A DNA stretch of 64,000 nucleotides from NCBI GenBank assembly GCA_030602885.1, contig JAUVYV010000006.1:1-64000 (forward strand), written 5' to 3'. A program made the translations under genes and the position numbers. Shown here piece after piece: positions 56,073-62,162 of the stretch (position 1 is the stretch's first letter; every line of letters begins with the position of its first letter). The notes below the pieces were generated by a model. It was not told the DNA's origin. It ran no database searches and worked only from the letters and a program-made list of their open reading frames with translations. The stretch is from Phycisphaerales bacterium (lineage in GTDB: Bacteria; Planctomycetota; Phycisphaerae; Sedimentisphaerales; Anaerobacaceae).

Positions 56073-56434
56073 AGCTTACCTCCTAACGTTAACATTCACA
56101 ATTTACCCATCCAACCCGGAACGCACATAACCCCTCGCGCCCGGGACTGTTTACTCCGCCCGGTATTAGCCTGACTGCCTTACTGAACAGTTTTGCGTTT
56201 CGACTTATCGCCATTGGTCCGGTTCCAGGATAACCGTTAGCATAAGCGTTGCCCTGATAAAAAGATATAATAACACGGGAGAGTGGGACAGGCACCTTTT
56301 TTCGCAGAGACGGGGGGGAAACGGCCAGTGGCGGGGTCGAACTGGGCCCCGGATCGGAGTCCGGGGTCCCGCCGGAGGCGGGTAAACTGCGCGACCTTGG
56401 CGTTGGGTCCCCTGCTGCTGGGCCATTGGAGGAG

Positions 56435-56482
56435 CAGTTCCTCTGCTGCAGGACCAAAGTAGCAATCCCTCGAGAACAAGCG
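56435..56482 (+). repeat. Left copy of 48-bp direct repeat
   Basis: Starts cagttcctctgctgcagg and ends with cctcgagaacaagcg. Matches 62021-62068 with one difference in 48 (gagaac versus gaggac). Same orientation. Flanks the accessory operon at 57.2-61.6 kb. Confidence 0.85.
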
Positions 56483-56620
56483 GGGGTCTGCGCGACCCTG
56501 GCGGGTCGCTTGAAAATTGGGTTCGTTTTGGGTTTGATTGGGTTTGCTTTGGGTTTGTTTTTCATTGGCATAATTCGCGGTTTTTGACGTAAGGGTTTTC
56601 TGCGTAAAGAGTTAGGTAGC

Positions 56621-56870
56621 ATTTTGCCTATTTTAACATTGGGTTTGTTTGGGTTTGTTTTTTGCGGCCCGAAGGGGCTATTTTTCTCGTAATCTCTTTT
56701 ATTGTATAGGGTTAGGTTCATATTTTGCCTATTTTAACATTGGGTTTGTTTGGGTTTGTTTTTTTGCGGCATTTTCCAAGAAATTTTCTGTAAGTCCTTT
56801 TTGCGCATAGAGTTAAATGTTGTCTAGTTATTTTGACATTGGGTTTGTTTTGCATAAAAAGGTGTAAATT
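56621..56870. repeat. Degenerate tandem repeat, unit about 100 bp
   Basis: The block attttgcctattttaacat followed by tgggtttgtttgggtttg recurs at 56621 and 56722; a shorter copy has ttttgacattgggtttg at 56831. Spacing of the ttttaacatt/ttttgacatt word is 101 and 99 bp. More g/t-rich partial copies precede it at 56515-56570. Confidence 0.8.
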
Positions 56871-57211: not shown

Positions 57212-58273
57212 TTACTTACCGTTATGGAGTGAATACGTTTTCATGCGAAGACACAGTGGGTCCGGAGCTTTAAGCAATTGTCCGTGCGTTATATACTTCT
57301 GGGCCGTACAACCGGAACAACATTGATTGACGTCTCTACATTTTGAACAGGGTAAGTGCAAAGGAGCGGCAATGTATTCTCGTACCGAATTTAGGTAGGG
57401 GGAATTCTGCCAACATTCACGAAGGGACCATTTGGCCAGCGTAGAGTAAGCATCAGTCCCAACAACATCCATACTCTTTACCTGCTTGAAAGCATCACAG
57501 GGTGAAATAGTCAAATCTGGCGCAACCGTTAATCTGTCAATGCCAGCCATGCACTTGGGGCTCTGACTACATAATAGTATGCTGTATGGTGAGCCAATTC
57601 GGATCTCCACGTATTTCTTAGCATCGATTATTAACTGGGATAGTGCCTTGGTTTGCTTCTGAGACAAGACAATTCCATCTACTCCTTTACTTCGACCCTG
57701 GGGAACAAGGCGTAAAATGCTAAGTTGTTCAATGCCGAGTTGCCCGGCTAAGCTAGCAAGCTTAGGAAGCTCTAAGTAATTGGCTACCATTGGCACAAAA
57801 TGAAGCTCCGTTTTCAAACCGAGTGATTTTGAATGACGAATTGCTTCTATGGTCTGCTGGTGACTTTCGCCTACCATTGTTACTGCATCATGCGTGGCTG
57901 GTGTTGCAGCATAGAGGCTGAAGATAATTCGATGCAAGCCAGAATCAGCTAGGTTTTTGATTATAGTCTTGCTATTGGGAACGACGCCTGAGGTGTACAC
58001 GGTAGCCGGCAGTTCTGCTTCGGTACAATTGTGAATCAACCTTCTAAGATTCGGCCATAGCAGCGGATCTCCACCAGAGAAAGCGATGTGCTGGACTCCC
58101 ATGGCAATCGCTTGGCTGATTATGCGATCCGCATCTGTATATGACATTTCTGCCGTGCTGTCTGAACATGCTTCACTGGAACAGTGGATACATCGCAACA
58201 AGCAGCGATATGTCAGTTCAAGTTTGATTTCTTTCAAAGTATAACGGTTGGACAATGGCACTTCCTGCCTCAT
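57212..58273 (-). CDS. Radical SAM / SPASM protein
   Basis: 353 aa. Cluster motif CLLRCIHC at Cys24, Cys28, Cys31; SAM-binding SGGDPLLW, TVYTSG and IIFSLYA. The C-terminal SPASM domain has CMAGIDRLTVAPDLTISPCD, a CSKCRDVNQCCSGC Cys cluster and a last PLCLR, so two auxiliary [4Fe-4S] clusters are likely. SPASM enzymes modify peptides, sugars or cofactors by radical chemistry. No precursor peptide is visible nearby. Last gene of the minus-strand operon, 8 nt after the hmdU-kinase-like gene, hence likely acting on its product or substrate (inference). Confidence 0.85.
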   Translation of the reverse strand: MRQEVPLSNRYTLKEIKLELTYRCLLRCIHCSSEACSDSTAEMSYTDADRIISQAIAMGVQHIAFSGGDPLLWPNLRRLIHNCTEAELPATVYTSGVVPNSKTIIKNLADSGLHRIIFSLYAATPATHDAVTMVGESHQQTIEAIRHSKSLGLKTELHFVPMVANYLELPKLASLAGQLGIEQLSILRLVPQGRSKGVDGIVLSQKQTKALSQLIIDAKKYVEIRIGSPYSILLCSQSPKCMAGIDRLTVAPDLTISPCDAFKQVKSMDVVGTDAYSTLAKWSLRECWQNSPYLNSVREYIAAPLHLPCSKCRDVNQCCSGCTAQKYITHGQLLKAPDPLCLRMKTYSLHNGK

Positions 58274-58281
58274 CGATGGTT

Positions 58282-59301
58282 CTATGTGCTTCTAAGCATA
58301 TTGTTTATATTCCATTTAGGAGGATACCAATAGTGAATGGGATCAGCTATAGGCTTAAATTTCTGCTTGATGCGTGTTCGTCCCGATCCATTAGCTTCAG
58401 GATGGGCAATACGGGAATACTTATCCACTTCGCAAAACAGGTTCTGACAATCAATCAACTGCAAGGGTCTGTCTCCAAGGTATTGGAAGGTTAACCCTAA
58501 ACGCTCAAATTCTTCCTTTTGTCTGTTTGTAACACGAAGGATTAGTTCTGGTTCGGAAAGGCCACCAAGTGATTTAAAGCACTTATAGATTCCATTTTTT
58601 GCCCCGGGACCAGGAACAACAAATTCCATTTCAGAAAAATCTGTTAACTCGCTGTAGTTCAAGTCTGTGACCAACTGATAGGCAAGGAAGTCGCCGATAG
58701 TTGGATATGAACGCAGAATATCAAATGCTGCTGCCATGTTGCGAGCGTTTGATATCAATTCGTAAGCACGATCTTCCATCATTCTTTCCAATAGCTTGAG
58801 ATGGTTACTATGTTTTCGAGTGAAGCCAAACGCAGAGTTTCCACTCGGCATGATATATGCGGCCGAATATATGGGTTGTTTGCAATCCATAGTCTTGCTG
58901 AGTAATTTGTCATAGTCGGCAAAGGAGTACCCAGAATAGCAGATCGTACCCAATTCGTTTGTAAGCATTTCCCATGTCTCAATCTTGTTGAACAGCTTGA
59001 ACAGAATTATCCGAAAAAAGACTTCTGGCGGTGAGGGGTCGCCTTTGTAAATTACCTCTCGAATAAGGTATTGACTTACGCGGTCTGACGCACGATAGGC
59101 GTTGGTAAACTTATACTTTTGCAGGATCGCATCTTCCGTCCAAGGGCCCCACTGCTTGCCCATTCGGCGGAAAAAGACTGCCTGTCGCTCTACAGCAAAC
59201 CGCCAGTAGGTGTCAAAGACAACCGACGGGATAGCAGGAGCCCATGCTCGTCGCACCATTTCTGGTGCAACTAATTCTGATGATGCGAGGGTGTTAGGCA
59301 T
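58282..59301 (-). CDS. Protein similar to 5-hmdU DNA kinase helical domain / thymine hypermodification enzyme
   Basis: The ATG at 59301 has GAGGG 5 nt upstream and overlaps the previous stop by 8 nt; the frame extends to 59334. 339 aa, mostly helical. The N-terminal half has FDTYWRFAVERQAVFFRRMG, GPWTEDAILQKYKFTNAYRA and SDRVSQYLIREVIY, which I recognise as the helical domain of phage 5-hmdU DNA kinases and alpha-glutamyl/putrescinyl-thymine enzymes. Later FLAYQLVTDLNYSE and ELILRVTNRQKEEFERLG continue that family. No Walker motif is visible. By analogy it handles a 5-hydroxymethyl-pyrimidine or its DNA adduct; assignment by motif memory only. Confidence 0.65.
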   Translation of the reverse strand: MPNTLASSELVAPEMVRRAWAPAIPSVVFDTYWRFAVERQAVFFRRMGKQWGPWTEDAILQKYKFTNAYRASDRVSQYLIREVIYKGDPSPPEVFFRIILFKLFNKIETWEMLTNELGTICYSGYSFADYDKLLSKTMDCKQPIYSAAYIMPSGNSAFGFTRKHSNHLKLLERMMEDRAYELISNARNMAAAFDILRSYPTIGDFLAYQLVTDLNYSELTDFSEMEFVVPGPGAKNGIYKCFKSLGGLSEPELILRVTNRQKEEFERLGLTFQYLGDRPLQLIDCQNLFCEVDKYSRIAHPEANGSGRTRIKQKFKPIADPIHYWYPPKWNINNMLRST

Positions 59302-60076
59302 TAGTCCCTCGCGCTCTTTCGTAATCCTCAACACACGATTTTATGTTAAGCGCCAAATGTCGCAATGGAGTCTTCGCTGGAGTCCCTACACATGCTACGC
59401 CAACGAAGCATGTCATTTGAGCCAACTCCAAGCCCATTTGAGTTGCCATAAACTGTCCCAACCGACACAAGCCCAAATAGTTGCCATACCCACGATCGAA
59501 AATATGTTCTTTAGGGTAATACCCCGTAACACAAAGCCCTGATTTGTGGATTCGTGCAAAGCCCACTTGCTGAAGGCAGGGAAAACCACGTTGTCGTTGG
59601 TGTGTAGCATCGCAGGTAGGATCAAATATGGAGGCTTGAAGAGCACTACGGCGATGATTACCTTTGTTTGTATAGGTCTCAATAATGTACTCAAGCTGAT
59701 TCTTCTTGCTGTCACCAACTCCATAGGCGATGAGGCGTTCAAAGTACACTCCATTGTAGTTGCCCTTGCATTTATGAATCTGGCTTAGGATTCGCAGATA
59801 TCGTTGATAAAGGAGAGTCCGTTCTTTGTTACGGTTCCAATAACTTCTTGGAAATATAGTGTTGGCTACCGTATGGCAAGACCCCAAAGAGTTAGATGCC
59901 AAACTAACATCAACTGCTTTTCGGATTTCCTCGTGTTCAGGAATGAGGTCATTGCTCAAGTCTGTGACTGTTACCGTCATAGGTGAAATCTCAGGGTGTT
60001 TCATAGTTGCCAAAAAGGCTTTTGCCCAAGCGATTGAAAGATTCGCTTCATTGATGTGTGTCGAATAGCTACTCAT
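59294..60076 (-). CDS. Divergent thymidylate-synthase-fold protein
   Basis: Start at 60076, preceded by GGAGG, overlapping the peptidase stop by 8 nt; upstream ATGs lie inside the peptidase gene. 260 aa. HRRSALQASIFDP (Arg pair 142-143), GFPCLQQVGF (Cys167) and HIFDRGYGNYLGLCRLGQFM align with the RRxxxxxWNP, PPCHxxxQF and DxFLGxPFN motifs of thymidylate synthases: the nucleophile Cys, an Asp and an Asn are kept, but the PPCH His is Leu. Phage relatives hydroxymethylate dUMP or dCMP. A pyrimidine-modifying role is likely; exact reaction unknown. Confidence 0.72.
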   Translation of the reverse strand: MSSYSTHINEANLSIAWAKAFLATMKHPEISPMTVTVTDLSNDLIPEHEEIRKAVDVSLASNSLGSCHTVANTIFPRSYWNRNKERTLLYQRYLRILSQIHKCKGNYNGVYFERLIAYGVGDSKKNQLEYIIETYTNKGNHRRSALQASIFDPTCDATHQRQRGFPCLQQVGFARIHKSGLCVTGYYPKEHIFDRGYGNYLGLCRLGQFMATQMGLELAQMTCFVGVACVGTPAKTPLRHLALNIKSCVEDYERARGTNA

Positions 60077-60932
60077 GATCGACCTCCGGAAAATGGCGAT
60101 ATTGTGCCAAGCCTTCAAAATGCAGGCGTGAAACTCTGATGTGTGACGCCCAACGTTCGGCTTCATTCTGCGCTCTATCGATACCTTGAGCAACAGCTCT
60201 GTATAGCAAACCATGTGGACAGGTCGCTATGAACTCCATACGAGTTGCCTCAAGAATTGTTTGTGAGGGTACAACAAGAATATCTCCTACACAAAGATCG
60301 ACAGGTTTCTCTCCCCAATACTTATCCAGGAGTATGAGTTCTCCCGAATGCTCAACTCCTGCAATCGCACTTTTAAGAATTTTGGGAGAAACTCTACTTA
60401 ATCGCTGAAAACTGCGTGATGAAATAAGACCAAGTGAACGATACATGTGTGTTAATAATGATTGGTATCCAACCCCAATATGGCCAGAGACGGCAAAGGT
60501 TTGCTCCGGAGTACATTCATCTATCTTCCAGCCTCTACTAGTAAATGCCTTGCATACGGCTAATTTAGGCATCAGAAGGAAACCAGCAAAACAATCAGCA
60601 AGAAACTCGTCTGGGTCCCATTGCTTCTTTGATACAGAATCGATGACTTCGTCTATTCGATTCCCATGGGCGAAGACATGATGTCCATATTCATGTGCAC
60701 AAGTAAATGCTAATCTGCCTCGAGGGCGGCAAGATGAAAGTAATATAAGTGGATTCTCATCATTGTAGTAAAGGCCCTCCATGCTTGAGATATTTTGAAA
60801 ACGAACCTCAATACCAAAATGATACATTAAGTCACAGACACAAATAGAAGAGGCAGGGCCTATTTTGGCGCGGCGACGCTCCTGAATAGCTGCTCTATGT
60901 GCCTTGCGAGCCAATTTCACTTTTGTACTCAT
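60069..60932 (-). CDS. ImmA/IrrE-type metallopeptidase
   Basis: 287 aa. Zinc motif HEYGH at 80-84 in FTCAHEYGHHVFAHG and third ligand Glu in PDEFLADCFAGFLLMP. In ImmA and IrrE, such proteases cleave an Xre repressor to release an operon in response to stress. Here the Xre gene lies immediately upstream with an ATGA overlap, so a regulatory pair is strongly suggested. The C-terminal half (SGHIGVGYQSLLTHMY, a long region to VSRLHFEG) is larger than the minimal peptidase and unassigned. Confidence 0.85.
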   Translation of the reverse strand: MSTKVKLARKAHRAAIQERRRAKIGPASSICVCDLMYHFGIEVRFQNISSMEGLYYNDENPLILLSSCRPRGRLAFTCAHEYGHHVFAHGNRIDEVIDSVSKKQWDPDEFLADCFAGFLLMPKLAVCKAFTSRGWKIDECTPEQTFAVSGHIGVGYQSLLTHMYRSLGLISSRSFQRLSRVSPKILKSAIAGVEHSGELILLDKYWGEKPVDLCVGDILVVPSQTILEATRMEFIATCPHGLLYRAVAQGIDRAQNEAERWASHIRVSRLHFEGLAQYRHFPEVDHE

Positions 60933-61279
60933 TGCCCTCTACCTCTCTTTGGCCGCAAGGCACTAAGCAACTTCATTATTTTGTCGAGATCATCAGATTT
61001 GAGCTTCGCCAATTGACGAGCAGCAAAGCGAACACGTCTGTCATCATGTTCAGAATCTGATTCTGAGCCAGCCAGCCATTTCATGTCGATACAGTATATT
61101 TCCGACAGTCTTGTCAGTTCATCCGCTGAGACCCGGCGGCGGCCAGCTTCCATCTCAGAGATAGACGGTCGATGGAGCCCAAGAAGTTTTGCGACTTGAG
61201 CCTGTGATAGCCCGGCCATTTCGCGCGCTGTTCTAAGGCGTGATGCAATTAGCTTGCGACCTTCACCTAAATCAGTCAT
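60929..61279 (-). CDS. Xre-family HTH regulator
   Basis: 116 aa. SRLRTAREMAGLSQAQVAKL then LGLHRPSISEMEAGRRRVSA is an HTH_3 domain; IYCIDMKWLAG follows as the dimerisation helix and a basic C-terminus KPKRGRGQ-like ends it. ATGA overlap with both the upstream ACP gene and the downstream peptidase gene. It probably binds the palindrome at 61585 and is the target of the ImmA-like protein. Confidence 0.88.
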   Translation of the reverse strand: MTDLGEGRKLIASRLRTAREMAGLSQAQVAKLLGLHRPSISEMEAGRRRVSADELTRLSEIYCIDMKWLAGSESDSEHDDRRVRFAARQLAKLKSDDLDKIMKLLSALRPKRGRGQ

Positions 61280-61563
61280 GATTTCTTCCTCTTCTTTGAA
61301 GTAGCCTCAAGAATACGATCTGCAATTTCACCGACGGACAAAGCACGTGTGCCGTCTTGGGAGGCACACAAGTTGCCAACGTCACCTATGTTAACTTCTG
61401 CGTCAACCATTGCGGCAAACTCAACTCCACTGAGGCTATCAAAGCCAAGGAGATCGCCGATCGGAACCGTTTCCTCATTTATACTAATTTTCTCGCGACC
61501 ACTAATGTCTTGGATTTCCAAGAGTAGCTTTGCGGCAAGTTTCACGATTTCATTACGAGTCAT
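61276..61563 (-). CDS. Acyl/peptidyl carrier protein-like
   Basis: 95 aa, GGAG upstream of the ATG. Carrier protein fold with GDLLGFDSLSGVEFAAMVDA: Ser43 in the DSL motif is the expected phosphopantetheine attachment point. Flanks diverge from fatty acid ACPs and there is a long loop (SGREKISINEETV). First gene of the operon. No ketosynthase, adenylation or thioesterase gene is nearby, so it may deliver an acyl or aminoacyl group to the modification enzymes; that is inference. Confidence 0.72.
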   Translation of the reverse strand: MTRNEIVKLAAKLLLEIQDISGREKISINEETVPIGDLLGFDSLSGVEFAAMVDAEVNIGDVGNLCASQDGTRALSVGEIADRILEATSKKRKKS

Positions 61564-61942: not shown

Positions 61943-62020
61943 GCGGAGGGCCATCTCACGGGGCAAGCGGGGAAAGTGAGAAGTAAGAATGGGTCCTCTG
62001 TAGCCAAGCCAAGGTAGCGA

Positions 62021-62068
62021 CAGTTCCTCTGCTGCAGGACCAAAGTAGCAATCCCTCGAGGACAAGCG
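62021..62068 (+). repeat. Right copy of 48-bp direct repeat
   Basis: Matches 56435-56482 at 47 of 48 positions, same orientation. Together the copies bracket about 5.6 kb containing the six-gene operon. The repeat also extends imperfectly to the left (gggtcc...ctg). Confidence 0.85.
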
Positions 62069-62162
62069 AGGATAAACTCAGGGTAAACTCAAGTGTGCAA
62101 CCCGCCGGTGGAACCGGGGGCTAAATATTTCGCCTGCAGGCAGGTGGGGGGGGTTAGTCGGT

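Follow-up and report, generated by a model that had tools for sequence, protein, structure and literature searches.

Thymidylate synthases (TS) are the textbook makers of dTMP. In these enzymes a cysteine bonds to C6, and C5 reacts as a nucleophile with a one-carbon iminium; the resulting electrophilic C5-methylene can take hydride, water or thiol. The fold can carry C5 chemistry other than dTMP formation, since the CMP hydroxymethylase MilA and the phage dCMP hydroxylase AfhB (PDB 5b6e, 9iqu/9iqc) do so. Phage thymidine hypermodification proceeds through a dUMP hydroxymethylase, a 5-hydroxymethyl-dU (5-hmdU) kinase and an aGPT-PPlase/PUGT protein, followed by radical SAM or PLP enzymes. The domain families concerned are probably those described by Iyer in 2013 and Burroughs in 2015, and the adjacency of the Pfam accessions PF18722 (MazG_C) and PF18723 suggests that the builders of these families had seen their association. 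The DefensePredictor study reports that TS and 5-hydroxymethyluracil-kinase domains were newly validated as defending E. coli against phages, and aGPT-PPlase, MazG, MazG-C and UDG are among the components of the systems that it predicts (Science 2026, PMC13092281).

The window (the whole stretch of DNA that was analyzed, 64,000 nucleotides from a Phycisphaerales bacterium) carries a minus-strand cassette that includes a divergent protein, TS1, placed in the TS fold by the original prediction (Table 1). The operon order is ACP, HTH, ImmA, TS1, PF18723 and radical SAM; the first five genes overlap, and the radical SAM gene follows after an 8-base gap. GC content is about 0.41-0.48 inside the cassette versus about 0.52-0.55 outside, and Rfam gave no match within it. 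The TS1 start at 60076 lies a few bases inside the end of the ImmA gene, an arrangement found also in its relatives, and an alternative upstream start is possible as far as 60214.

Table 1. Cassette genes and TS1 motifs in the window
Feature	Position	Strand	Basis or remark
Acyl-carrier-protein-like protein (ACP), 95 aa, GFDSL phosphopantetheine-attachment motif	61276..61563	-	Weak family matches; motif Ser conserved in family
Xre-type HTH regulator, CapH/RstR-like	60929..61279	-	Family matches
ImmA/IrrE M78 metallopeptidase, CapP-like	60069..60932	-	Family matches
TS1, divergent thymidylate-synthase-fold protein, 260 aa	59294..60076	-	Family, fold and profile evidence
GFPCLQQVGF, TS1 residues 164-173	59558..59587	-	Cys167 = E. 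coli TS Cys146; Leu168 replaces His147
DRGYGNYLG, TS1 residues 194-202	59471..59497	-	Asn199 = E. coli TS Asn177; Arg195 replaces Gly173
PF18723 protein (HMUDK_hel; aGPT-PPlase/PUGT-like), HhH-glycosylase-related fold	58282..59334	-	Pfam E=1.3e-109
Radical SAM/SPASM protein	57212..58273	-	Family matches

TS1 has no PF00303 match in Pfam. Its best family match is the methanogen-type TS family TIGR03283 of NCBIfam (E=3.2e-10; 39.9 bits, the cut-off being 174.55 bits), and it lies below the cut-off of every TS family; PHROGs returned a weak TS match, and no relative turned up among PDB sequences when P0001 or the profile made from it was the query. The TS1 profile was aligned with E. coli ThyA, T4 gp42, SPO1-type gp29, CN1 and the second TS proteins (TS2) of related cassettes, and it matches the profile of ThyA and the hydroxymethylases over 219 columns (E=4.3e-7). 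An AlphaFold2 model built from 59 sequences has a mean pLDDT of 94.9 and a pTM of 0.93, and in a Foldseek comparison with the PDB it gave 392 matches at E<=0.001, led by TS-fold enzymes. MilA and AfhB are its best structural matches (Z 15-17), at an identity of only 15-16%; on re-alignment, which covered about 200 residues at 3.0-3.6 A, phage dCMP hydroxylase scored Z 17.2 and 17.0, MilA 16.8 and ThyA enzymes about 15, and among viral models the top match was T4-type dCMP hydroxymethylase. The NCBIfam, profile-profile and Foldseek matches put TS homology beyond chance, the predicted TS fold is supported, and the profile alignment with ThyA and the hydroxymethylases places Cys167 at the Cys146 equivalent.

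The profile alignment pairs E. coli TS residues Cys146, His147, Tyr94, Arg126 and Asn177 with Cys167, Leu168, Tyr111, Arg142 and Asn199 of TS1. Cys167, Tyr111 and Asn199 are unchanged in all 83 TS1 relatives compared and Arg142 in 79 of them, and the relatives alignment also has Arg114, Asp156, Tyr187 and Thr73 invariant. The proposal that GFPCLQQVGF holds the nucleophile thus agrees with both the alignment and the invariance of the cysteine. Since the loci were fetched partly by motif (FPCL, YGNYL), which biases them toward invariance, subsets were checked: the cysteine is kept in 19 loci fetched through YGNYL only, the asparagine in 19 fetched through FPCL only, and both in the four loci that have neither pattern. 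The residues that hold dUMP in TS are a different matter. The position of Arg166 (TS1 188) has Ala in 70, Pro in seven and Arg in five of the 83 sequences; that of Asp169 (TS1 191) has Gln, Tyr or His, that of His207 (TS1 229) mostly Lys, and that of Tyr209 (TS1 231) Glu, Gly or Asp. The Ser167 equivalent is mostly Thr, the Gly173 equivalent (Arg195 in TS1) is Lys or Arg in all 83, and the Glu58 equivalent (TS1 77), where the local alignment is weak, varies among Gln, Glu, Ala and Ser. The original prediction had the distal DxFLGxPFN motif rewritten as DRGYGNYLG; this is correct for the Asp169 and Gly173 equivalents, which are replaced, but the asparagine of PFN is retained as the invariant Asn199. 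The deepest TS1 members (loci L006-L009) retain an Arg where E. coli TS has Arg166, and a His in the 207 region, so the main TS1 clade seems to have lost its dUMP contacts secondarily. In summary, TS1 has in common with the ThyA/TIGR03283 superfamily the fold, the nucleophilic cysteine and the equivalents of Tyr94, Asn177 and the partner-subunit Arg126; it differs in having no fixed Glu58 (again, the local alignment is weak), in the replacement of Arg166, Asp169, His207 and Tyr209, and in the genes linked to it, which encode a carrier protein and a paired repressor and protease. Judged from these alignments, replacement of the four dUMP-holding residues is the real departure of TS1 from TS.

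The loss of the PPCH histidine, by comparison, is real (82 of 83 TS1 relatives have Leu there) but ordinary, and the argument once drawn from it for an altered chemistry fails, because His147 is missing as well from the host's other TS (Leu), from dUMP hydroxymethylases (Asn) and from T4 gp42 (Thr). That other host TS lies on contig 7 (L010 1375-2265, contig C7), is methanogen-like and scores 131.6 bits with TIGR03283, also below the cut-off; it reads PPCLQ and keeps Arg126, Arg127, Arg166, Ser167, Asp169, Asn177, His207 and Tyr209. ThyX has no match in the host genome.

The cassette was compared across 91 loci; of the 142 stretches with TS1 relatives in the genome collection, the best 80 were fetched. 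The ACP, HTH, ImmA and TS1 genes share one strand in all 91. ACP was recognized in 87 loci, HTH in 88, ImmA in 90 and PF18723 in 82, and in every locus that lacks ACP the contig begins partway through the operon. MazG/MazG_C occurs in 60 loci, AcpS in 36, a dCTP-deaminase-like protein in 25, a thymidylate-kinase domain in 26, TS2 in 20, radical SAM in nine, DUF1643 in nine and UDG in three. PF18723 is followed by MazG/MazG_C, by a dUMP-hydroxymethylase-like TS with a kinase, or, as in the window, by radical SAM, which replaces MazG/MazG_C in nine of the 91 loci; these three modules seldom co-occur, and each clusters on the TS1 tree. Seven complete loci are without PF18723, and these have UDG (L007-L009) or DUF1643 (L065, L069, L085 and L091). 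Sequence identities of TS1 correlate with those of ACP (Spearman 0.81), ImmA (0.79), HTH (0.74) and PF18723 (0.57), and none of 300 permutations was as high; the TS1-PF18723 pairing was found again in three later-drawn genomes of the window's phylum. A C1 papain-like peptidase gene lies between ImmA and TS1 in L007, L008, L009 and L102, three of which have UDG downstream. The TS1 of L102 (3681-4515; Rhizobium plasmid pRlX4) comes as two open reading frames in an otherwise typical cassette, through either gene breakage or a mistake in sequencing.

The neighboring proteins suggest that the bases of DNA or of nucleotides are modified. The model of the window PF18723 protein (pLDDT 90.3) has as its best Foldseek match the 5-phosphomethyl-dU glycinyltransferase gp46/PUGT, a moderate one (prob 0.98, E 0.027); on re-alignment Z is 10.9 (3.7 A, 225 residues) for PUGT and 11.1 for the queuine-salvage protein DUF2419, and helix-hairpin-helix DNA glycosylases also match. 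PF18723 relatives occur in 487 phage records, and one record names such a protein "putative DNA base hypermodification protein". The proteins closest to TS2 are annotated phage deoxyuridylate hydroxymethyltransferases and SPO1-type gp29. The thymidylate-kinase domain is fused to PF18723 in 19 loci (for example, L027 7756-9414), a fusion that recalls the PF18723 family name "5-hmdU DNA kinase". The cassette is like the phage thymidine hypermodification pathway in its PUGT-like PF18723 protein and, in some loci, in its TS2, kinase domain and dCTP deaminase-like protein. Unlike that pathway, it is cellular or plasmid-borne and lies next to HTH-ImmA, has the carrier protein and TS1 in every complete cassette, and comes in MazG/MazG_C, UDG or DUF1643 variants. 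Both TS2 and the kinase domain are present in 18 loci, whereas the window cassette has no recognizable dUMP hydroxymethylase and no 5-hydroxymethyl-dU kinase, so that the phage pathway is incomplete as annotated there. One MazG/MazG_C query found no MazG in the host genome. Among plasmid proteins, the one most similar to the window radical SAM protein is encoded directly after a PF18723 gene, beside Nmad2 and a ThsB-type TIR gene. The row on this plasmid, from Parabacteroides distasonis (L103 4319-9477), is a 166-aa protein, a ThsB-like TIR protein, Nmad2, PF18723, radical SAM and a 521-aa protein; it is possibly an immune system with base-modification enzymes.

The cassette is rare and horizontally spread, and probably mobile. 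TS1 is present in four of 392 genomes of the window's phylum (the window genome included), and 16 phylum-level names appear among the rows of the TS1 tree, the sole Bacillota row (L090) being nearly the same as a sphingomonad sequence and so perhaps contamination. Relatives are carried by 20 plasmids, 13 of them typed conjugative, and by two viral contigs; with none in 50,697 phage records, a phage origin of TS1 was rejected.

The reading preferred here, with a probability of roughly 0.58, is that TS1 carries out C5 chemistry within a cassette for hypermodification or against invaders. The computations that bear on it are the fold, the invariant Cys and Asn, the rebuilt phosphate/sugar site, the fixed gene order, the co-inheritance and the module exchange; on this reading TS1 belongs to the TS superfamily, can still catalyze although its substrate pocket has changed, and forms the core that stays the same from cassette to cassette. 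The original suggestion of a C5 chemistry other than dTMP formation gains from the fold, the Cys mapping, the separate host TS and the thymine-hypermodification neighbors. In such a scheme Cys167 would attack C6 of a uracil-type base, the substrate being something other than free dUMP, and C5 would gain a carbon by way of the adduct usual for TS, with a product not released as dTMP. Like its phage structural relative gp46/PUGT, the PF18723 protein may then put an amine or amino acid on the base in exchange for a (phospho)methyl leaving group, and radical SAM may rearrange the base adduct; the phosphopantetheinylated carrier protein would hold a reactant or tether TS1, and HTH and ImmA would repress the operon until stress or a DNA signal arrives. 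Probably the cassette would serve to make a pyrimidine, modified or toxic, that acts against invading DNA, or else to mark the DNA of the element itself. A bolder version, in which the pantetheine thiol of the carrier, or a group that it carries, reacts with the TS1 C5-methylene to give a new 5-substituted uracil that PF18723 and radical SAM finish on DNA, is unlikely; if true, such carrier-protein-coupled chemistry would be a new TS-fold reaction and a bacterial route to hypermodified DNA. More generally, a widely scattered TS subfamily that keeps the nucleophile, has its nucleotide site rebuilt, is always accompanied by the carrier protein, repressor and protease, and neighbors DNA-hypermodification enzymes points to undescribed bacterial pyrimidine chemistry, possibly immune, and the cassette is a defined gene set with which the roles of PF18723, MazG_C proteins and TS-fold enzymes in defence can be tested.

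Hydroxymethylation, which the original prediction had offered by name, is a rather unlikely alternative: TS1 would be an ordinary pyrimidine hydroxymethylase using methylene-THF, water would end the reaction, and 5-hydroxymethyl-dUMP (or the UMP/CMP product) would feed PF18723. Close fold matches include MilA and viral dCMP hydroxymethylases, the DPxxD motif is common to TS1 and dUMP hydroxymethylases, TS1 resembles uracil-specific enzymes in retaining the Asn177 equivalent (T4 gp42 has Asp there), and most MazG and radical SAM cassettes are without a second TS. However, the SPO1-type, CN1, T4 and TS2 hydroxymethylases conserve Arg166, Ser167, Asp169, Gly173, His207 and Tyr209, all of which are replaced in TS1, and the Glu58 position, in a weakly aligned stretch, varies; moreover, the 20 loci with a separate dUMP-hydroxymethylase-like TS2 beside TS1 indicate that the two are not simply redundant. 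Hydroxymethylation specifically is thus not established. That TS1 is an extra thymidylate synthase making dTMP is very improbable, even though plasmid records name it "thymidylate synthase" and TIGR03283 is its best family match, given the score below every TS family cut-off, the lost dUMP contacts, the rarity within the phylum and a host that has another TS with its nucleotide-binding residues in place.

The loss of Arg166, His207, Tyr209 and a fixed Glu58 could also mean a sensor rather than an enzyme, a protein that binds a nucleotide, perhaps covalently via Cys167, and so controls ImmA cleavage of the HTH repressor. Its fixed order with regulatory genes at every locus fits such a role, as does the fact that its strongest co-divergence is with ACP and ImmA, but the invariant equivalents of Cys146, Tyr94 and Asn177, together with Arg114, Asp156, Tyr187 and Thr73, look catalytic, and in some loci the C1 peptidase gene separates ImmA from TS1; a purely regulatory TS1 is accordingly quite improbable.

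A role in defence against phages is possible. The window HTH protein resembles CapH and the ImmA protein CapP. LmuB-like, type I methyltransferase or ThsB genes lie next to several cassettes, as seen in a few hand-picked neighborhoods with no background rate. No PADLOC model matches TS1 or PF18723. TS, kinase, aGPT-PPlase, MazG, MazG-C and UDG domains are common to the TS1 cassettes and the DefensePredictor systems (PMC13092281), as compared by domains. The accessible literature yielded no description of the invariable ACP-HTH-ImmA-TS1 unit, of the remodeled TS pocket or of the exchangeable modules.

The window cassette is flanked by an 82-nt direct repeat (56404-56485 and 61990-62071, 83% identical). 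A mobile-element boundary there was considered and rejected, as 28 matches in the genome mark it as a dispersed intergenic repeat. Between the radical SAM gene and a PIG-L-type deacetylase-like gene lies a T-rich array of 43-nt repeats spaced about 101 nt apart (56520-56863).
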